Shown here: positions 11,638 through 63,960 of the stretch, one piece after another
How positions within the stretch are numbered: position 1 is the stretch's first letter
Layout: each line of letters opens with the position of its first letter
DNA from: Chloranthus sessilifolius
Taxonomy: Eukaryota; Streptophyta; Magnoliopsida; Chloranthales; Chloranthaceae
Direction of reading: 5' to 3'
DNA length: 64,000 bases
Assembly: GCA_021018995.1 (NCBI GenBank)
Contig: CM037593.1
Location: 8,460,088 to 8,524,087 of the forward strand
Notes under the pieces: generated by a model
What the model was told of the DNA's origin: nothing
The model's input: only the letters and a program-made list of their open reading frames with translations
Database searches by the model: none
Made by a program: the position numbers and the translations under genes

Positions 11638-12200
11638 TATATAGATAGTCAAGGGGAGAATGTGCCCGCGCATAGAGATTTTATATGCCCAGATTACTCT
11701 ATAAACGACATATGGTATAGGGCATACTTTATTAACTAGGGTTAAAACACTAAAAATATTTTAAATGCTAGATTTTCTTTCAACTGTAAGACTAACTTTT
11801 TCAGAAGTCGCTTTTTTTTTCTTTTTCTTCTCTCTTTTTTTTAAGAAAGTGTCATACTTACTTTTTCATAATTATCTTTCTTTTCTTTCTTTTTTGTCTC
11901 ATTTTTCAAGGAAGTCTTCTTCTTCTTAAAATCAAACCTGTCGTAAACTGCTTTGATTCTCATATAAAGACCATTTTTCATCCTGATCTTTCACAAGATT
12001 GATCTTGAAATCATGGGCGTACCATCAGATGATTTATTTTACTAAAAAACTTGGAGCTGCGATAGAGAAGTTTTGGAACCCCTCTAGTGGAGCTTTGATA
12101 CCGCAATAGAGAAGCATTGACACTCCTCAAGTGGAGCGCTAACACCTCGCGAGAAGCGCTGACACTCTTCTAGAGGAGCGTTGTGTCACGCATCATGCAA
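11638..12200. mobile_element. One end of a TA-docked long-inverted-repeat element plus GCG minisatellite
   Basis: Starts on TATATAGATA with GGGGAGAATGTGCCCGCGCA and TAGAGAT, then ACTAGGGTTAAAACACT and AAAATATTTTAAA, the same order as the inverted ends at 15317 and 17610. At 12055-12185 follow imperfect units with words such as GGAGCGCTAACACCTCGCG and GAAGCGCTGACACTC. No matching right end was found, so this copy looks truncated. Confidence 0.6.
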
Positions 12201-17660: not shown

Positions 17661-17672
17661 CTGGGGTACTAC

Positions 17673-17867
17673 CATGGATCAAAATGTCGAAAAATCGGTA
17701 CGTATTGTCTGGTCAAAAAATCGGAACGTATCGGTACCGGTCTATATCGAACGATACATTGAATGTATCGTTCGATACATACATATATTTTAACAATACG
17801 GTACATTTAATGTACCGTGTCGTTTACGTCCGATACCGATACGTATCGGACGATATTTTGATCCATG
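17673..17867. mobile_element. hAT MITE, CAWGGATCAAAAT family, copy 2
   Basis: 195 bp. Ends CATGGATCAAAATGTCG and (reverse strand) CATGGATCAAAATATCG. Flanking 8-mers GGTACTAC (17665-17672) and GGTGCTAC (17868-17875) match at 7 of 8. The interior is made of palindromic ATCGGTACCG and CGATACGTATCGG words. Confidence 0.88.
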
Positions 17868-18039
17868 GGTGCTACCCACGAGTGTATTGAATACTAAGTG
17901 GCACTGAATGCGGAGAAAGTGAGTGAGTTAGTACTCTGCAATTTGGGAGAGGATGTAAATATGTATAGTGGATATGGAAAAGAGTACCTCTAAGTCCAGC
18001 CACCAAATCTTTGGGTTCATTCATACCGAAACACATTGA

Positions 18040-23592: not shown

Positions 23593-24206
23593 AAGTTCGT
23601 AAATATCTTGCCTAATTTTGTTTTCAATGTTCAGATCATATATAGAAAGCATATAGTTTTCGGGAGATCCTTGCTTTAGTTGTTGCATTCACAAATTTGG
23701 CTTGATCTCCTGAACCCTAAAACCTAAATCTTAAACCCTATCCGTTTTGGGTACACTAATTTTTCATGTTATTAGTTTTTAATGCAATGGTTTCCAATTT
23801 TCTAATTATTTATATGTAGGTGTATACTTTTTGATTTAATGAGTGTTTGGAATATTATAATAAGGGAAATTTTCGTAATCGAACCTGTCAGATTCACCAT
23901 TTTCGTCAAGAGACCCTATAGTTTCTCCTTTCACCAAACCGACCAGCTTGTAGCCGAGCCGACGCCCTCCTTTATGATTTACCGAAATTACCGCCAAGCT
24001 AATAAATTGCCGTAAAATATTCAAGTCATTACTGTTTTACTTTTTTTACTTTTTACTTTTCATTCGAAGTCGGTGGAAGGTGTAAGTTAGAAATCAAATT
24101 ATCTTCTATTGCTGTAGAATTTTTTCTTCCTCTATTGACGGTCTATATTTCAAAGTAATTTTTTTTTTCATTTTCCCAATGACGGAGCGATATCGCACCT
24201 TTAAAC

Positions 24207-24335
24207 AGTCGGTATTGACTGTTTCGAAGGTCGATATTGACTGTTTCGAAGGTCGATATTGACCGTTTAGATAGTTGATATCGATTGTTTAGTAAGTCGA
24301 TATCGACTGTATAGGAAGACAATATCGTTCTCTTA
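24207..24335. repeat. Subterminal palindromic iterons, MULE left side
   Basis: Five or six units of about 22 bp with the core GGTCGATATTGACTGTTT or GTCGATATCGAC, a near-perfect dyad. They lie ~350 bp inside the left end. Confidence 0.85.
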
Positions 24336-24431
24336 GCCTGATTATATATTACAGTTCATTTAAATAATTTGTGTTAATATGAGACTCACTCATTTCCTTT
24401 TTATTACAGTTCATTTAAACAAGCTGTCAAG

Positions 24432-26439
24432 ATGGTCGTACAACGGGCTATTGCCAAATGTTCCCCTATTGGCATTTGGAAGCTCTACGATGACGCTAGT
24501 CCGAGGCGAAAGGAGTTGCTGAGAGCATCAGTTTTCGGTGGGATATTTCAAATGCCAAAGGGTGTGGGTTTTCTTGGAGATGTCGTCGATGCGATGTTGA
24601 GTTTTTGGGTTGAAAAAAATCACTTCCGAATCGGGAAGACTGATGTCTATCTTCGGAAGATGGACATTGCATTAATACTGGGTATTGCCGTAGTTGGCCC
24701 CGAACAGTATACCCCCTCCGTTAAACCACCGGAAGAAGAAACTATTCGCTACAAATATTTTCGTGGATTGCCTACCGGAAAAATTCTCCGCTCTCATATA
24801 GACTTTGGAATGAGGAGAGCGGAAAGTGACGACGATTTTGTAAAGTTGTCTCTTCTATTTGTGCTGTGTACATTTCTTTTTCCCGGGTCCCACCATCAAC
24901 TGGCGGAAGAGCACGTCGACCTCATCGATGACGTCGAGAATTTCAATCGAACTCCTTGGGGTCTTCATGTGTACCATGACTTGCTTGAGTATATAATGAA
25001 GGGCGTGGCCAGTAGAAAGGCTGCCGACATGGGTAAAACCTTTAAGTCGTTCAACGTTTATGGCTGCATTTGTGTACTTCAATGGTGGGCTTATGAGATG
25101 CTGCCACAAATCTCACCTGAAAGAACGCCCCTGAAGAACCCTTTCCCACGATTGTTGAAATGGGCGGAGAAAGCGCAATCAAGGATGAAAGGCTACACTC
25201 TTGGAAAGATGCTGAACAACAAGGTATGATGTCTTTTTAAATACGTCAAATTTCTAAAGCTAATGATTGTAAAGAATACCAATGTCGATTGAATAAGGGG
25301 TCGATACCGACCTCTTAAAGAGTCGATATTGACTGCGTACAGAGTCGATACCGACCGTTTAAGGAATCAATACCGTGCACTTATATTCTATTTTCGATTT
25401 AGTGTTCTGATATTTAAGTTTTTTCTTTTTTTTGTAAGGTTTATGCTCCCCTCGAACCGATTTCCTTTGAGTTAGAGATACCCGTCGTACGAGAATATCT
25501 GAGAGATCGAAAGGTCGTTGGGGCGAAGAGGAAAGAGGTTGATGAAGAGGTGAAATTCAAGAAATTTGTAGAAGTGGAAGTGGATGTGCGGCCAAAGAAA
25601 AAGAGAAATTACATTTCGGTTGACATTGACGAGGAAGGTTTTGACGCTCAATCGATGTCGGACGAAGAATCATCCTCGGAAGAGGGTCCCGTCCATTTAG
25701 AGCGATCGAGAACAAGGGAGGTCACGAAGGAGAGTGCCAGTGCACCGACCTCCTCTAGTGAATCGTTATTGAGGAAGATCGACGGTCTGATACTCGACAA
25801 CTTAAAACTCACCCAGAGACTCACCCAGAGAGTGAGCCATTTGGAGCAAGAGAATGAGCGGCTCGTGACACGATGCAACTCCTTGGATGAACGACTCACT
25901 TCAAGGGATGTGGAGCTGCAGACGATGAATCACTCAAACATGTTGATCAGAAAGGACCAACTGATTCTGAAAGAACTTCTTCAAACGATTTTGGAGGCTA
26001 CACGTAAGGTATGTGTTATAACGTAGTTTGTATAGGTGAATATAATATATTCCAGCTTTCTAATAATGTTTCATTGGATGGTCAGGATATTGTTATCTCG
26101 GAGCTGCTATCAAAGGTGCCTAGTACAACCTTCGATATGACATCTTCAACCGATAAGAGACCTCCTTCCATACATGAGGACGCGACAGCTAGTCCGGCAG
26201 TTGGTGACGAGCAACTCGAGTCTCAAGCCGATAAGGGACCAACTGGTGATGAGCAACCCACTTCCCAGTTTACGGGTGTGCCTGAGCAACAAATTGACAC
26301 TTGCTTGAGACCTCATAAACTCACGAAACACATTGTCGTGAAACCTAGGACCGAGCGAAAGGGACCCCCGAAAAAAAAGCTTGTAACGGAGAGGGCCATT
26401 GAGGAGACGTTGGTCGTTGACACCATTGAGCAGACATAG
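24432..26439 (+). CDS. MULE-borne plant-mobile-domain/DUF1985-like protein with coiled coil
   Basis: Three exons, 24432-25223, 25439-26008 and 26056-26439, with GT-AG junctions and phase 0, predict 581 residues without a break. The N-terminal ~260 residues (FGGIFQMPKGVGFLGDVVDA, VYLRKMDIALILGIAVVG, NVYGCICVLQWWAYEMLPQ) have the layout of transposon-associated plant mobile domain or DUF1985 proteins: a helical region, a repeated G-F/L-x-LG pattern, then a W-rich segment. A basic RPKKKR (about 315-320) could be a nuclear localisation signal. An acidic Ser-rich stretch and a Leu heptad coiled coil follow (~372-450), and the C terminus has GPPKKK. Such genes ride on some plant MULEs; their role in transposition is unknown. 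Intron 1 contains three of the element's palindromic repeats. Domain naming is by resemblance only; I see no Ulp1 protease domain. Confidence 0.72.
25283..25378. repeat. Palindromic iterons inside intron 1 of the MULE accessory gene
   Basis: Three or four units GTCGATACCGACC/GTCGATATTGACTG spaced ~22-24 bp, the same unit as at both MULE ends. Confidence 0.8.
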
Positions 26440-27560
26440 GAGCAAAAATACATGATGACAACTCTTTATTTAGTTTTGAATTTCAATGTTGGCCATTATT
26501 TATGCAGCGCCTATGTAAGCATCATCGTTGACGACTCTTTAGACAGTCGTTCGATTGTTTACTTATTGGCTATGTTAATATTACATCCCAAATTTATGAC
26601 TAATCGAATTTGTATATTCTAAGTTTTTGAGCAAATGTGCATTCAAAGCAAATGTACATTTCAAATTTGTAAATATTGCATTCCAAATTTAGAACTATTA
26701 CGAATCGAATTTTCGGCCAAACTTTGTCTCGTAACGCTCCTTGTACGATCTAGCCGACTTCTTATACTATTTTTGGATGCGATCTATCTCCATCCACCGC
26801 GCGTGAATTGCAATCCTATCATCTATCGACAGATGACTTGTGTCAAATTTATACTAAAGTGTCATAATTTCGGAGGATGATTCTGTATCGGAGGTTCTTT
26901 CACTCTTGAAATTTAAAAGAGTTACAAAGGCGATCATTATAAAGGAAAATTTTCATATAATAAAAGCGGTACCATTAGTGGTCGTGAAATGAGTCTGACA
27001 GTTCCCCCGTCCACAACTTCGAAAGTTTCAGGGCGTAAACAATGTCTTGCCCTCGCCGAAGGTACAAAGTCCATAATTATCGTTTATATTGTGTTACGGA
27101 AGCGACGTACTTTCATAATGGAAAATACAGACCAATATGTAAGTTGCCAAAATATCCCATTTCTTAATAGAAAATGCAAGTTGCCAAAAAATCATATTTG
27201 TTAATAGAAAATGCAAGTTACCAATCCCTTAATGGAACAATATCGCTCTGATGGAAGAGTGTTAACGATCTCTTAGAGGATTGCTAGCGATCTCTTAATA
27301 GAGCCATATCGATCATCATTGCTTGAATTAGAAAGTGATTTACTATATAAAGGAGGCACGTACTCTATCAACACATCGGTTCAATTGCCATGCAACTCCT
27401 GCGATTGTGATCATACTCACTGCACCTTCCACATTGTAGGGCTCTAACTTCACCTTTAGACCTTATCATTCTCTTCATCAGGCATCCAACTTGCTTTCGG
27501 GAATTATAGGATGGTCTCGCTTTCATATTTTTCAGCAGTTGGTCAGCTTGAATTTTCCAT
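26440..27560. other. MULE interior between the convergent genes
   Basis: No convincing gene. On the minus strand near 26880-26690 are frame pieces with charged composition (e.g. SARSYKERYETKFGRKF) but no recognisable family. A further small cluster of ATCG-containing units lies at 27236-27320. The 3' part of the transposase gene may extend into this area. Confidence 0.5.
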
Positions 27561-29663
27561 TGGCTTTTATCGAAGGTGAGAACCTATTATTCGTCGTATG
27601 ATTATCTAAAGCAAGCGGTGAAAAATCACTTTTTACAGAAGTTATAGTAATCGTAACTTCTTCGATTGATGGCCGCAACGGCATGCGAGTAAGGTAAACT
27701 ATGAATGTGCCAACGACGACAAATACATGTCTTATGTTCCAAGTTGACGTGATGTATGAAATTCTCGAAATTCACTTAGAAATGATCCCGCATGTATGGT
27801 TGAGCTCTCTTTCTACCAGCTCATTAGAGCACCTTCTTCATGTGCTCGCCTGCTTTCGGGCAGAGAAGAGTGTTCCAATTATTAGATCTCTATTGGCGCT
27901 TTTGAAAATAATCGGGGACTTTCTCTCTAATAGTTCTGATTAAGTCGATTATTGGTTTCTCCCGAGCTAGCTTCAGTACGTTATTCAAGCTTTCAACATT
28001 ATTCGTAGTGAGAAAATCGTACTGCCTTCATTTGAAATGTGTGCGTGCCCAATGCTTCGGGTCTATTTTACAAATATACTCTACGCCCCGAGGATCAACA
28101 TTTTCCTTGATTTTGTTCATAAAATAATCAAACCACTCTACTGAATATGCACGCACAACGCACTACCATAGATCCAATGCACCGTTCTTAGGATGTGTCA
28201 AATTCTGTGTCATATGTCGCATGTAGTAGCTGTGATATGCGTTAGGAAAGATTCATTTCACCGCATTTATTATTTTACCCTTCGACCTGTCCGTGATAAT
28301 AACGAAATTTTTGTTAAACTGATCGATTACGAACGCATCTATCCGTTCAAGAAACTACATCCACGTATCCTCTTCTTCTACCTCGACGACGACGAACGCT
28401 AATGGTAATATATGGCCATTACCGTTTTTCACCGAGGCGATAAGTATGATCCATTCGAAACGTCCCTGTAGGTGTGTGCAATTTACAAACAATATGCGAC
28501 GAAGTGTATTGCGATAGCTTCTGATGCATGGGCCAAAACTCCAAAAAAATCTTTGAAACTTACCGTCAGGCGTAGGTTGAAAGGACGTTCGTAAATTAGC
28601 ATCTACCCTCTCCATCCTTCATGTAGGGCAGTAGATCCACAAATTGCCCTTGCCAACTGCCCCCAATATCGTTCAGGGCGAGTTCTTTTCCTCTCCAAGC
28701 CTTAAAATATTTTATTTGCACGTTATAAGCTTTTGCAATGTCAAACATTATCGATGCAGGTGTGTAGTCGAATCCTTTTATAAGTTTCTCCCGTACATAG
28801 TTGGCTACGAAGGAGATTGTTGCATTATGGTGACCGTGCGCTCCGATTTTAGGAGCCCCGTATGTGTGAGTACTATTGAACGTCTTAATTTTGAAAGAGT
28901 CAAGCCCATTCAATTTAGACGCATGTATTCGCCACAAACAATTGGGTTCGTAGCATCCTACTATCACTCGATAACTAGTGGTTTTCAAGGGCAGGATTTG
29001 GAAGTTTTTCTCCACCGCGTGTTCTTTCAGTGCTCTTTGGAATGTTTGCTTGTCTTTGAAGACCTCTCTAATTTTAAACATCCAATTCCGGTATTCGATT
29101 TCTGCATCTTGATCGAAAGAGTCGCCCGATGTCTCTGACCCTTCGTAATCTTCGTCTACTGGAGGGTTATCAATGCTTTTCACGAAATTTCTCGGATCCT
29201 CTTTTCTAAACCCATATGGTTCGCTATCATAGTATTGAGCGTTTTCTTCTAAGTTATCTTCATTAGGGGTTGAGGATGACTACGCCCTTCACTAGCGGTG
29301 TTCTCAGGTGGTTGAGTAGACCCTTCACCACCGGGGTTTTGATGTTGTTGATTAGGCCCTTTACCGAAGGGTTCTGACGTGGTTGACTAGACCCTTCACC
29401 GAAGGGGTGCTCATAACAACATTGTTGGGGTTGAGCTCCTCCGGTAATCCCCATCGATGGAATGGTAGAACATAATTCGCGAGTCAACCAAGTTGTGAAT
29501 CCACTGGGGAAGAGATGATCGAAATCGTCTTCATCCCCCATCCTTTCTAACTTGTAGTCTAACTCTTGACGACATTGTTGTGACCCATGTACATATTTTA
29601 ATGGGTCATCCTATGATTCAACTGGAGCATTGCTTAAATCAATAGTTGCTTTACTAACCGACA
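27560..29663 (-). pseudogene. mudrA-like MULE transposase, broken
   Basis: Read right to left. ATG near 29663 (MSVSKATIDLSNAPVES, then an in-frame stop). Next come acidic sequence and a repeated VKGL(I/L)N module, then MFKIREVFKDKQTFQRAL and the MuDR zinc/WRKY-like box (VGCYEPNCLWRIHASKL, THTYG). The MULE catalytic domain follows: QPTPDGKFQRFFWSFGPCI, then FVNCTHLQG where intact relatives have DGTHLKG, so the first catalytic Asp is Asn here. Then FVIITDRSKG with the second Asp, and YDFLTTNNVESLNN. A frameshift near 29263 and several stops interrupt it. The SWIM finger was not located. The product would bind the ends and cut DNA if intact; this copy cannot. Confidence 0.85.
29283..29410. repeat. 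Minisatellite in the MULE transposase N-terminal coding region
   Basis: About four imperfect 33-48 bp units built on CCCTTCACCGAAGGGGT or variants, giving repeated VKGL peptides on the minus strand. Confidence 0.75.
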
Positions 29664-30185
29664 TCTTCGCCGTAATATCGTCGTCATCGCCTAAACGACT
29701 GTTTCGTATATAGGTCCATCCTCGTCAAACTTACATGGTTGAAAAGAATGGTTATTCACAAAATCGGTCCTGGCAAGAGGTACTTGTTCAGCTTCGACTC
29801 GGAAGAATGGCGGTTTTTTAATAATAAATATCTTTATGGTGTCCACTCGGCTTTATAAAACGTAAATTGAGAGGCCAAAATCATTCGAGTCCAAAATGTC
29901 GGCAAACATAGGGGTATTCACTATCTTCATAGAGAACTTTACGGAAAGTGTTTCATCCACCATTGCAAAACTGATAACGTACGTTCGCTTTATGAATTAT
30001 TCATAAGAAATACCCATCGAAATGGAAAGAAGTCACCGTCGCTCACCTTCATATAAGCCATCAGCGCTTACAAGAAAACTCATAGTGACAGAGAAGAGGA
30101 ATGCCCATCTCTGATACTATATGTTGAATAATACAAAGAAAGGGGTCATAAGGCAGATGACATAAAGGGTGATGAAGTCTGCCTA

Positions 30186-30382
30186 TACAATCAATACCGA
30201 CTATATAGACAATCGATACCGATTGTATAAACCGACGATACCGACTTTATAGATAATCGGTATCGACTGTTTAAAAAGGCGATATCGACCGTTTATACAA
30301 TTGGTATCGATTGTCTATAAAGTCGGTATCGACGGTTTATACAATCGGTATTGACCGTTTATACAATTGGTATAGACTGTCT
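30186..30382. repeat. Subterminal palindromic iterons, MULE right side
   Basis: Eight or nine units of ~22 bp, e.g. CGGTATCGACTGTTTA and CGATATCGACCGTTTATAC. The largest of the four clusters, ~480 bp from the right end. Confidence 0.85.
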
Positions 30383-31000
30383 TGTCTACGAATGCGATAA
30401 CATTTCTTTAAAAAAAAATTACCAATAAAATATAACTCTTTTTTATACTATACCATTATGAAACCCCAAGAAATTGAAAATGAGATTTACACTGGATAAT
30501 CTGAATATATCTCGTGTCGTAATGGCAAACTGTAGGGTTTTTTTTTTTCCAATGGCAAAATGCAAGGTCTTCTTCTCCCAAACCTGTATTTTCTACTTCC
30601 AAACTGTAGCAGACTGGATTGAGGAAGAAGATGTCTTCACCTTTGCCACCTCTAACTTTTTATTAATTGGAACAGATTAAAATGAGGAAGAAGGGGTTGC
30701 TTTTCTGAGTTAAAGAAAGTCATAGAAGGGGTATCTTCGACTTTTTACTCTCCTTAGGGTTGGGTCGGCTTGGAGCTGGTCGGTTTGGTGAAAGGTGAAC
30801 ATATAGGGTCTTTGACGGAAAAGGTGAATCTGACAGGGTCGAGTAGGGAAATTTCCCTTATAATAATATAATATATTTTTTAATTTCTATTTATTATTTT
30901 CTTCCCTAAAATTTATTTTATTTTTTAACATTAGATTATATTTATTATGGATATTGCAGTTACACATTTACAGTGGTTGGTTTACTTTGATTCACTCTGC

Positions 31001-43260: not shown

Positions 43261-44181
43261 TTAAGGAAAAAAAAACTACAGTTAGACTTTCGGCTTAGCT
43301 CTCCTCACTAAACGACTAAACTTTAAACCCTATTGCTCTCATCTCCCTCTTCTCTTCTGTCCCCTATCTAAAACCCCTAACCCTCTAATCTATCCGTCCT
43401 GTCTTTTCTCTTAGTCTCCCCTCTCTAAAACATTAACTCTTAGCCAGAAGAAGAAAAAGCACTGACACAGGTGATATAAAAAGAAATTTAAATATAAAAT
43501 CACTGTGAATCATAGTAATTTTTTTATTTTTAGTTTTATTAAATAACGGTAATTTATTATTATTTTTTTAAAATAGTGAATCCTTGTGATTCTCCATGAA
43601 TGTAGACATAATGTCATTGCTATTTTAAGGTACTCACTGATTACCTCCATGCAAATCAGAGATATATAGCCCAGAAATCTGGTTTTTGATAGCACAACAG
43701 AATGAGGTTTTAGGGTTTGTGAAGAGCCCCAATAAAATCTAGTTTTGTTTTTCAAATTCAGGTTATGAACTTATGACAGCCAATGAAAATCAGCTCTGAG
43801 GCTATTGATTTAGGGTTTATTCACAGCGGTGTTTTACATTGAATCTATGATTTTATTTATTTTGATATATTTTATGGATTCCTTACCATGATAATTATAT
43901 TTTTGAATCACTCTTTATTTTTGTGATTGTTATTGAAGTTTATTTGCATTGAAAACACTGATAATCCCTTTTATCAGTGTTTAGTGGTAGGTGTCAACAC
44001 TGAATTTTTTTTTAATTATCTTTATTCCTGTTCACTGTTTCAGCACATGATAAACCCTCTTTATTAGTGGTGAGTGGTGACTATTAATTATTAACACTCT
44101 TTACACTGTTAATTTTATCAGCTTATCATTGGTTTGATTTTGATTTTTTTTTCCCTATCTACTTTTTTGAGCAGAACTACA
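43261..44181 (+). other. Region upstream of the hAT transposase; possible leader
   Basis: A CT-rich stretch at 43330-43470 could be a leader exon: CACAG|GTGATA at ~43468 would be a donor, and TTTTTTGAGCAG at 44163-44174, seven bases before the ATG, is a good acceptor. TGATAAWCCC/TTATCAGTGTTTAGTGG motifs recur at 43960-44080. No other gene. The hAT TIR was not found. Confidence 0.4.
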
Positions 44182-46284
44182 ATGCCGAGACGAAAGGATC
44201 CATTTTGGGAGTATATGATGGACGAAGGAGGGAAGATTAGATGTGGATTTTGCCAAGAACAATTTGTGGGAACTATCACAAGAATGAAGATTCATCTATC
44301 AAAGTTAGTGCAAAGGGATGTGCGACCATGTCCAACGGTCCCTGATTCTGTTTGTAAAATGGCATTAAGAGCCGTTGGCGAGATGGACTCACGTAAAAAA
44401 ACAAAGATATCAAATTTTTTGAAGCCAACTGGGGGCAATTCTTCTCCCGGGTCAGCTGCAAGTTCAACGTGTGGTTTAGTGCCACTAGAAGCGCAACCGC
44501 TAAAGATGACATCTTTGATAAAAAACGAAGAAAAGGAGTTAGCTGACAATGCATTGGTCAAGTTTCTAATTGCATACAATCTTCCATTTAGTTTATTGAT
44601 GTCCGATGAATTCCGTGAAGCAATCGTAGCCATTGCAAATCATGGCCCCGGATATGTTCCTCCGAGTAGTGAAACTTTAAGAACGAAGCTATTACCATCA
44701 TTGAAGGAAGAAGTTGATGAGTATATAAAGGAGATAAAAAGATCATGGGCTCTTTCAGGGTGTACCTTAATGTTAGACTCATGGACCGATGGGCAAAAGA
44801 GGCTACATATTAATTTATTGGCATCTTCCCCTAAAGGGACGATTCTTTTAAAATCCGAATGCATGGCTAGAAAGGATAAAGATGACAACTATATTGCAAA
44901 TTTCATTTCCTCTGGAATTGAAGAAGTGGGACACGAAAACGTCGTGCAATTCATATCTGACAATGCTTCGTTTAGTAATTCAGCGGAGTTTGTTATTGAA
45001 GAAAGGTTTCCAAACATATTCAAGACTTCTTGTGCTGTACGTTGTTTGGATATCATCTTAAAAGAGATCGATAAACTACCCAATGTGGAGCCCGTTTTAG
45101 CTAGTGCACGGAAATTGGTGAAGTTCTTTTATAAATATCAACTCATTCTAGATTTGATGAGATCGCATACAAATGGTAGAGGATTGATAAGATCAGATGC
45201 AACTAGATTTGTTACTCAGTTCATGTGTTTGCATTCAATCGTCAAAGAAGAACAAGCACTACGATTTATGGTTGCTTCAAATGAATGGAGAGCTTTACCT
45301 CAAAGTAAAATGGATGAAGGGATTGAATTGATGAACATAATCCAAGGGGATGTATTTTGGGAAAATGGGAAAGAAATTTTATCCACTGTTGAACCCTTGG
45401 TTAAAGTGTTAAGGATGGTGGATTGTGATGGCTCCACTATGGGATATTTATATGGAAGTATAAATAGGGCAAAAGATGTAATTAAAGAAATTTATAAAGG
45501 TGAGAGTGAGAAATTTTTGCCTTATTGGGAAATCATTGATGAGCAGTGGAACCAAAATCTACATAGTTCTCTTCATGCTGTTGCGGCCTACCTAAATCCT
45601 CACTTGTTTTACGATAAACTCGTGAATTTGGATAAACAAGTGAAAGCAGGATTCGAGAAGATAAGAGAAAAGATGGTTCGATCTGATGAGATCATGGCTT
45701 TAACTAGAGAGCTCAAACTTTACCACCTAAGGGATCCATGTCTCTTTGGATCTATGGCAATTGAAGCTCTTCATGAAACACATCCAAGTGAGTTTTTGAA
45801 TTTATTTATTATTATAGTTAACAGAATTTTTATTAGCTTAGACTTCTTAATTGTCAAATGATGATTTATGTATTTGTATTCAGGAGTTTGGTGGGACATG
45901 TGGGGGGCGGAGTTCCCAATTTTACGAAAGTTGGCAATCAAATTGCTCAGCCAACCATGTAGAGCTTTTGCTTGTGAAAGAAATTGGAGCGCTTTTAAAG
46001 CAGCACACATGAAGAAGGGGAACAGGGTGAAACAAAAAAAATTACATGATTTGTTTCTTTTTCGAATGAATATGCGATTAATGAAGATAAGTGCAAGTAA
46101 GGACGTAAAAGATTCTGAGCCAATCAACCTCGATGATATTTTGGCATTCCCAAATGTACCGCTATCCAACGAGGACGATGACTTTGAAGATGATGCTTAC
46201 GCTTCTACTAATGAGTTGTCAGAGAATGCAGACTCGGACCATGATATGAGGTTTGGTGATGTTGATAATTTGATGAGTTCTTGA
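44182..46284 (+). CDS. hAT-family transposase (BED finger, DUF659, dimerisation domain)
   Basis: Exons 44182-45787 and 45884-46284 (GT-AG, phase 1) predict 668 residues, all open. N-terminal BED-type zinc finger (C21-x2-C24, then H and C). DUF659 core: LMLDSWTDG with Asp199 and FISDNAS with Asp260. C-terminal hAT dimerisation domain: WWDMWGAEFPILRKLAIKLL, CERNWSAF with Glu567, KKLHDLFLFRMNMRLM. In most relatives the segment after the second Asp reads CAAHC; here it is CAVRC with Arg287 in place of the conserved His, which may impair cutting. I chose the ATG at 44182 because MPRRKDPFWEYM fits the family start and a splice acceptor precedes it. It could be an autonomous hAT, an immobile copy, or a co-opted host gene. 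No TIRs were identified. Confidence 0.87.
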
Positions 46285-63085: not shown

Positions 63086-63189
63086 AGCTATGAGTAGATA
63101 GAAATACAGAACAGTGATATAAGAGGTAAGCGCTAACGCAATATCGCTTCATTCACTTATTTAGAATGTATAAATCATAAAATTTTAAA

Positions 63190-63960
63190 CATTCAAAATA
63201 TATAAGGCGGTGTTGACGTAGACGTTTCTTCGGTGAAGAGTTGGGGCTCAGCATAGCCCGCAATCGCTTCTTATGTAAAGCGATGGTGCTTCTAAATAGT
63301 TGTGCCATCACTTCTTACGTGAAGCGACAGCGCCTCAAAATAGTAGCACCATCGCGTCTCATGTGAAGTTTTACCTTATTTGGCTGTTGTTGTTCGATCT
63401 CTTCGTTTAGTTATTTGCAATGTATAACTCATAAAATTATAAGGATTTAAGTAGTATAAATCGGTGTCGACGCAGATGCTTCTTCTGTGAAGAGTTGGGG
63501 CTTAGCATAACCCCTCATCGCTTCTTATGAGAAGCGATGGAAGCGATGGCACCTCATACTAGTTGCGCAATCGCTTCTTATGCGAAGCGATGAGGCCTCA
63601 GAATCGATGCGCTATCGCTTCTTATGTGAAGTTTTGCCTTATTTGTCCATTAGCAAAGTTTTCCTATATTCAGTGGCCTCGTCGTAGATCGATCGATACT
63701 TCACAATGGTGCACTTAGTCGCTGGAGTCTTGATAATCATCTTAAAAATTTGCGAATTATAAAAAGTTACAGAAAGACAGAAAAAAGGAGCGTCATTGCT
63801 TCGTCATCGTAGATAGAAGCGTTGACACTTCCAATAAGAAGCGTTAGCACTGCTTACATGGAGAGATTGTGCCTGTACACAGAGGTGCAGAGGCGCTAAC
63901 ACACCATGAAAGGAGCGTTGGCGCTCCATCAAGGAAGGATTGGCGCATATTTAAAGCTGC
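63190..63960. repeat. GAAGCGATGGCGCY minisatellite
   Basis: Reiterated ATCGCTTCTTATGNGAAGCGAT units: a dyad with CGCTTC/GAAGCG arms, in at least eight imperfect copies, plus a ~250-bp higher-order duplication (GACGTAGACGTTTCTTCGGTG and GACGCAGATGCTTCTTCTGTG start the two halves). Confidence 0.8.

Follow-up and report, generated by a model that had tools for sequence, protein, structure and literature searches.

Phased palindromic arrays in a Mutator-like element of Chloranthus sessilifolius as candidate operators for its PMD/DUF1985-type accessory protein

What reads the repeated palindromes of a Mutator-like element (MULE) in Chloranthus sessilifolius, and to what end? The element spans 6,994 bp (23864-30857) of the 64-kb stretch analyzed here (contig CM037593.1, positions 8,460,088 to 8,524,087; hereinafter the window). 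A preliminary description of this DNA had reported clusters of a ~22-bp palindromic iteron near both ends of the element, in intron 1 of an accessory gene and, more weakly, between the two genes. By analogy with known systems, we give about an even chance to the reading in which a PMD/DUF1985-type protein encoded by the element uses the four clusters as operator arrays and acts in VANC-like anti-silencing of a MULE bearing terminal inverted repeats (TIRs).

All four clusters are arrays with a 22-bp period (arrays A-D; Table 1), within ~20 bp of where the preliminary description had placed them. The cores of arrays A, B, and D follow one another at exact 22-bp steps with zero indels, and no indel is present in any of the 25 units of the four arrays. 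None of the four overlaps recognized coding sequence. Array A lies 322 bp inside the left end of the element and array D 480 bp inside the right, both outside the TIRs. The sequence GTCGATATCGAC, allowing at most one mismatch, occurs eight times in the window against 0.08 expected (100 shuffles), and all eight occurrences are inside the element, in arrays A, B, and D. A TA dinucleotide occupies the core center in 20 of 21 units of these arrays and the spacer center in 18 of 21, and thus recurs every 11 bp. Only one core, at 24296, is a perfect palindrome, and the edge units are weak: those at 24186, 24318, 25278, and 25366 agree with the consensus at 7-8 of 12 positions, and the one at 30366 agrees at 9.

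Each of arrays A, B, and D was also scored by a position weight matrix (PWM) built from the other two. Fifteen of the 21 units exceed 12 bits; the six units below 10 bits are the five weak edge units plus 30300. Fourteen units outscore every site outside the element, and the unit at 24274 (13.9 bits) is equaled by two outside sites. Eighteen sites in all reach at least 12 bits, two of them (38467 and 63460) outside the element.

The weaker cluster between the genes, array C, is real but divergent. Specifically, the half-site TANCG recurs in it at four consecutive 22-bp steps, whereas in 60 simulated windows, with both strands counted, runs of two numbered 38 and no run reached three; in the real window, runs of at least two are confined to the four arrays. 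The self-identity of array C is 0.56 at lag 22, 0.50 at lag 44, and 0.55 at lag 66. On its own, the lag-22 value does not set array C apart: seven regions beyond the element reach it as well, most of them dinucleotide microsatellites, with a 22-bp repeat near 12107 in addition.

The conserved feature of the 12-bp core is the purine/pyrimidine (R/Y) palindrome RTYRRTAYYRAY. The 12 core columns had been set in advance by the dyad of the preliminary description, and the other 10 bp of the period form the spacer. In the 16 inner units of arrays A, B, and D, which leave out the analyst-chosen edge units 24186, 24318, 25278, 25366, and 30366, the core carries 26 transitions and 2 transversions at 192 sites, and the spacer carries 20 transitions and 25 transversions at 160 sites. 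Transversions are therefore ~15-fold rarer in the core than in the spacer (2/192 vs 25/160; Fisher p=1.5e-7; p=0.0024 in a permutation that takes columns, not units, as items), whereas transitions are equally frequent in the two (Fisher p=0.87). Once the edge units are included, for 21 units in all, the counts become 40 transitions and 10 transversions at 252 core sites and 33 and 36 at 210 spacer sites (column permutation p=0.0097). When substitutions are scored against the consensus of each cluster, the permutation gives p=0.0018 for 16 units and 0.012 for 21 units.

Other duplicated DNA lacks this bias. Seven tandem-duplicate pairs elsewhere in the window, two of which overlap each other by 9 bp, together differ by 76 transitions and 52 transversions. 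The core is distinct from them in this respect (p=0.0004 for 16 units, 0.009 for 21 units) and the spacer is not (p=0.12). The TIR pair contains 4 transitions and 10 transversions. Between clusters, the cores are 0.98-1.0 identical as R/Y and 0.74-0.85 identical as nucleotides. At the four inner pairs, the core arms complement each other in R/Y terms in 20-21 of 21 units, and at the outer two in 18 and 19 of 21, whereas Watson-Crick complementarity holds in only 9 of 21 units for pairs 5-8 and in 11 of 21 for pairs 4-9. The core pattern argues against a freely decaying minisatellite, and mutation alone is insufficient to explain it, because extra deamination adds transitions without removing transversions.

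The accessory gene that would encode the reader of these sites is open throughout. It lies on the plus strand, comprises three exons, and encodes 571 amino acids in a model with GT-AG introns and phase-0 junctions, read from the sequence alone; the intron 1 that had been proposed for it is borne out, array B included. Exon 1 matches Pfam PMD with an E-value of 1.7e-10 and 41.1 bits (cut-off 34.9). A heptad stretch in exon 2, a probable coiled coil, has hydrophobic residues at 15 of 23 a/d positions in the best frame.

The transposase lies on the minus strand, convergent with the accessory gene, and, judged from its reading frame, is dead. It matches Pfam MULE at 1.7e-12 with stops read as X, SWIM scores 0.011, below cut-off, and a frame change at 28596-28618 splits the N-terminal DNA-binding domain from the MULE domain. 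Its first catalytic Asp, as judged from a motif, appears to read Asn. The 559 transposase codons counted (27600-29279) contain 10 stops and the 571 accessory codons none. A decay test set these stops against the codons that a single C-to-T or G-to-A change would still turn into a stop: 10 stops and 34 such codons in the transposase, 0 stops and 37 such codons in the accessory gene (p=0.0015; weaker at p=0.006 with 8 stops and 0.012 with 7 stops, the most conservative count). The comparison is suggestive of an accessory gene that outlived the transposase under selection.

The anatomy of the element, the periodicity of the arrays, the constraint on the core, and the open state of the accessory gene are established. 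Among the points in favor of the operator reading are the R/Y core constraint, the exact 22-bp phase, and the open PMD/DUF1985 gene. We infer binding, dimerization, autoregulation, demethylation, and anti-silencing, in the following form. The accessory protein, probably dimeric through its heptad stretch, would bind the R/Y palindrome. Binding would be cooperative across the sites of an array, as proposed because the sites recur every 22 bp (~two helical turns) and TA steps every 11 bp. Motif density and helical periodicity are reportedly named as determinants by Sasaki et al. in 2022 (EMBO J, e110070). The protein would act from four places in the non-coding DNA, namely the region 5' of the accessory gene, intron 1 of that gene, the convergent gap, and the region 5' of the transposase; it may counteract DNA methylation of the whole element, and would thereby keep its own gene, and formerly also the transposase, expressed.

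The closest published counterpart, on the evidence of passages from the papers cited here, is the VANC system of Arabidopsis. VANDAL21 and VANDAL6 are likewise MULEs with an accessory gene of DUF1985 type, VANC21 and VANC6 (PMC5735166, PMC10398659); VANC proteins contain DUF1985 (PMC5735166). The tandem motifs to which VANC21 binds lie in introns, among them that of VANC21 itself, and in intergenic and terminal non-coding regions of VANDAL21, an element that VANC21 demethylates and de-silences (PMC5735166). The four arrays described here share this layout, being tandem arrays of a short motif in mainly non-coding DNA: an accessory-gene intron, an intergenic region, and terminal non-coding regions. 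The preliminary description knew of no MULE with an autoregulatory design of this kind; the design has a close precedent, because VANC21 targets tandem repeats in its own intron (PMC5735166). RNA-directed DNA methylation also targets non-coding regions of VANDALs and overlaps VANC targets, less clearly for VANC21 (PMC10398659).

The two systems differ in their motifs and proteins. The motif here is an R/Y palindrome at a strict 22-bp phase, whereas the VANC motifs are YAGTATTAY or AGTTGTCC/AGTTGTAC, VANC6 targeting other elements through a different motif from VANC21 (PMC5735166). The accessory protein here scores higher on PMD than on DUF1985, and the transposase here is dead. Binding and demethylation are reported for VANC21 and are predictions for the present element.

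PMD genes in MULEs have precedents of their own. In MULE groups 42 and 47-50, PMD genes are antisense to the transposase (PMC6446971), as the PMD-type gene is here; in groups 47-50 the TIRs range from 14 to several hundred bp, and the target-site duplications (TSDs), where indicated, are 9 bp, or 9-10 bp in group 50 (PMC6446971). Unlike the present element, these groups are not credited with iteron arrays in the passages and table of the survey (PMC6446971). Among the matches listed from open-licence PMC papers, none describes motif arrays in a PMD-bearing MULE, a statement about those papers and not about print at large. The Arabidopsis genic PMD proteins MAIN and MAIL1 likewise tie the PMD family to expression of transposable elements (TEs; PMC7156037, PMC5418596), and promoters of genes dependent on MAIN/MAIL1 are enriched for a DNA motif, 'DOWN' (PMC7156037). 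They differ in being host genes that act in silencing, with no element-borne arrays, and the passages cited do not include direct binding to the motif. A counter-silencing role has been proposed for MULE-captured and TE-borne PMDs (PMC5418596, PMC8616336), and the present element would give that proposal a concrete candidate. If the operator reading is true, a MULE with TIRs, a PMD protein, and the VANC array layout separates anti-silencing from degenerate TIRs. Moreover, with a strict 22-bp phase and an R/Y palindrome to work from, short probes suffice for a direct test of how this poorly understood protein family recognizes DNA.

Several points weigh against the operator reading. Exon 1 matches Pfam DUF1985 at 2.2e-5 and 24.9 bits, under the curated cut-off of 35.1, and its PMD match spans just 35-217 of 347 profile positions. 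Coiled-coil Pfam matches to exon 2 are all below cut-off, the heptads having been counted by frame, and the AlphaFold model of exon 1 alone, made from a single sequence, is uninformative (mean predicted local distance difference test score 37.6). The VANC21 motif is described as keeping a single orientation within its arrays, and both VANC motifs are non-palindromic (PMC5735166). Degenerate TIRs are a VANDAL feature noted to accompany anti-silencing (PMC10398659), whereas the TIRs here are ~100 bp, and we do not file the element as a VANDAL; survey group 45 (VANDAL) nonetheless lists TIRs of 46-174 bp (PMC6446971). Array C keeps a single half-site, TANCG, and its palindrome is gone. The right edge of the R/Y block is not sharp, as shifting the 12 columns 1-3 to the right lowers the R/Y identity between clusters only from 0.983 to 0.972. 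Array units share ancestry and are not independent data, which qualifies all tests of constraint. Finally, the decay comparison is not uniform, because the 28619-29279 part of the transposase (220 codons) is likewise stop-free.

An unlikely alternative is that the arrays are subterminal sites of TnpA type, used by the accessory protein or the transposase to join the element ends, with the internal arrays as by-products. Arrays A and D are indeed subterminal and the largest (7 and 9 of the 25 units), and in En/Spm, a CACTA element, the subterminal repeats recognized by the TNPA protein act as cis-determinants of excision (PMC2613891). En/Spm resembles the present element in having an element-encoded DNA-binding protein (putative here) and clustered short motifs near its ends (PMC2613891), and a link of TnpA to demethylation is reported (PMC10398659). 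However, arrays B and C are internal and have the same 22-bp period, arrays A and D sit well inside the ends, beyond the TIRs, and the ends are those of a MULE; En/Spm has CACTA ends and a 3-bp TSD, in contrast to the 9-bp TSD, MULE transposase, and internal arrays here. The preliminary description had suggested that the arrays suit binding by transposase or accessory protein. They do look like sites for an element-encoded protein, and the transposase is the less likely of the two, given that arrays B and C are internal and that the TIRs contain no array.

It is distinctly unlikely that the arrays are a non-functional minisatellite that slippage or gene conversion has spread within the element and that is now decaying, a possibility that the preliminary description had itself raised. 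The spacers of different clusters are still 46-60% identical, so the arrays probably share ancestry; the edge units and array C are degenerate, and the transposase is dead. Against this stand the depletion of transversions in the core and not in the spacer, the TIRs, or the seven other duplicates, the absence of indels, and the restriction of the arrays to DNA outside recognized coding sequence.

A further idea, doubtful enough to be called improbable, is that the motif is a purine/pyrimidine code, with a reader protein that senses R/Y steps through purine N7 or DNA shape, and with the arrays as deamination-proof operators for anti-silencing in a TIR-bearing MULE. An R/Y reader would tolerate every transition, and sites would therefore survive the C-to-T decay that follows from host cytosine methylation. 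If true, anti-silencing would stay working under the mutation pressure that silencing itself creates.

Very improbable, in our view, is a role at the RNA level, in which the arrays, array D above all, give rise to RNA hairpins that either supply small-RNA silencing or serve as decoys for it. The two halves of array D are inverted copies of each other (80% complementarity over 97+97 bp, without a gap; 30185-30384), and as RNA the array would fold into a long hairpin at -107.3 kcal/mol (z -15.1), with z -8.6 for array A and -4.1 for array B; for each of the three, 0 of 200 shuffles fold as well. Arrays of palindromes fold well for trivial reasons, however, and array C folds no better than shuffles (z -0.8; 38 of 200 as good) despite its period. 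That the arrays are host transcription-factor sites captured as enhancers is scarcely credible: array A is just upstream of a TATA-like stretch (~24341-24352), which lies between it and the accessory ATG, but no phased TANCG run exists elsewhere in the 64 kb, and a promoter has no need of sites in an intron or between convergent genes.

The class of the element, a MULE as the preliminary description had it, follows from its ends and its transposase. The TIR pair is 85% identical across 100 columns, a 9-bp TSD (TTATAATAA) is present on both flanks, and the transposase carries the Pfam domains DBD_Tnp_Mut and MULE. The element is not of CACTA (En/Spm) type, its termini being GGGAAATTT and its TSD 9 bp rather than 3 bp. 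The coordinates of all features are collected in Table 1.

Table 1. Features of the Mutator-like element (positions in the window)
Feature	Position	Strand	Details
Target-site duplication, left	23855-23863		TTATAATAA; same 9-mer recurs at 30858-30866
Left terminal inverted repeat	23864-23963	+	Pairs with reverse complement of 30759-30857
Array A	24186-24329		7 iteron cores, 22-bp period; upstream of accessory ATG
Accessory exon 1	24432-25223	+	PMD/DUF1985-like region
Accessory intron 1	25224-25438	+	GT-AG; holds array B
Array B	25278-25377		5 iteron cores, 22-bp period; within accessory gene intron 1
Accessory exon 2	25439-26008	+	Open frame; heptad stretch, probable coiled coil
Accessory exon 3	26086-26439	+	Ends at stop codon
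Array C	27236-27323		4 divergent units, half-site TANCG, 22-bp period; between convergent genes
Transposase remnant, MULE-domain part	27600-28618	-	MULE domain and degenerate SWIM; 10 in-frame stops
Transposase remnant, N-terminal part	28619-29279	-	MuDR DNA-binding domain, Pfam DBD_Tnp_Mut 5.9e-12
Array D	30190-30377		9 iteron cores, 22-bp period; 5' of recognized transposase parts
Right terminal inverted repeat	30759-30857	-	~100-bp partner of left terminal inverted repeat
Target-site duplication, right	30858-30866		TTATAATAA; perfect 9-bp match to left copy

Searches for relatives were negative within their scope. No second copy of the element is present in the window (blastn, E up to 1e-3), nor was a second copy of the accessory gene found there (the best tblastn match elsewhere has E 0.17). 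A sequence search of PDB with exon 1, up to E 1, gave no relative, and exon 1 has no NCBIfam match; its protein has no relative in plasmids; in viral contigs, 7 pattern matches to it gave 0 confirmed by tblastn. A two-site pattern of the motif matched 4 viral contigs. DUF287 and Ulp1 are not among the Pfam matches listed for the element, a further difference from the VANC systems; no Rfam family reaches gathering score within 23700-31000, and the window contains no tRNA.

Two likenesses of the arrays were considered and set aside. Arrays A and D are not an extended TIR: they are 75% identical over 112 bp in direct and 71% over 119 bp in inverted orientation, the two being alike because the units are palindromic. 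The CTCTTA of the spacer in some units of arrays A, B, and C was judged a coincidental match to the TCTTA of the En-1 motif. The observed/expected CpG ratio is 2.25, 1.71, 1.15, and 2.67 in arrays A, B, C, and D, respectively, and 0.98 in 2,054 bp of other non-coding DNA of the element; this enrichment is not used as evidence, because the core holds a CpG by construction.

In the transposase region, a 35-36-bp tandem repeat of ~3 copies lies at 29277-29406, and a minus-strand frame at 29263-29610 encodes a repeated peptide over it. Elsewhere in the window, a small MITE-like (miniature inverted-repeat transposable element) stretch at 17672-17868 has CCATGGATCAAAATGTCG/CGATATTTTGATCCATGG arms and internal CGGTACCG-like palindromes, and the PWM sites at 17730, 17740, and 17829, which are loosely grouped and out of phase, lie in its palindrome. 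Near the window end, at 63143-63645, a further repeat set has a palindromic ATCGCTTCTTATGTGAAGCGAT-like motif and may belong to a different transposon; the PWM sites at 63206 and 63460 are two copies of one 254-bp duplication. The longest stop-to-stop frame in the window, an open frame of 582 amino acids at 44113-45858, matches DUF659 at 7.5e-43 and, by the association of that domain with such genes, is probably a hAT-type transposon gene. An open frame at 61151-61729 matches Coq4 (ubiquinone biosynthesis) at 7.3e-63 and is probably an exon of a host gene.

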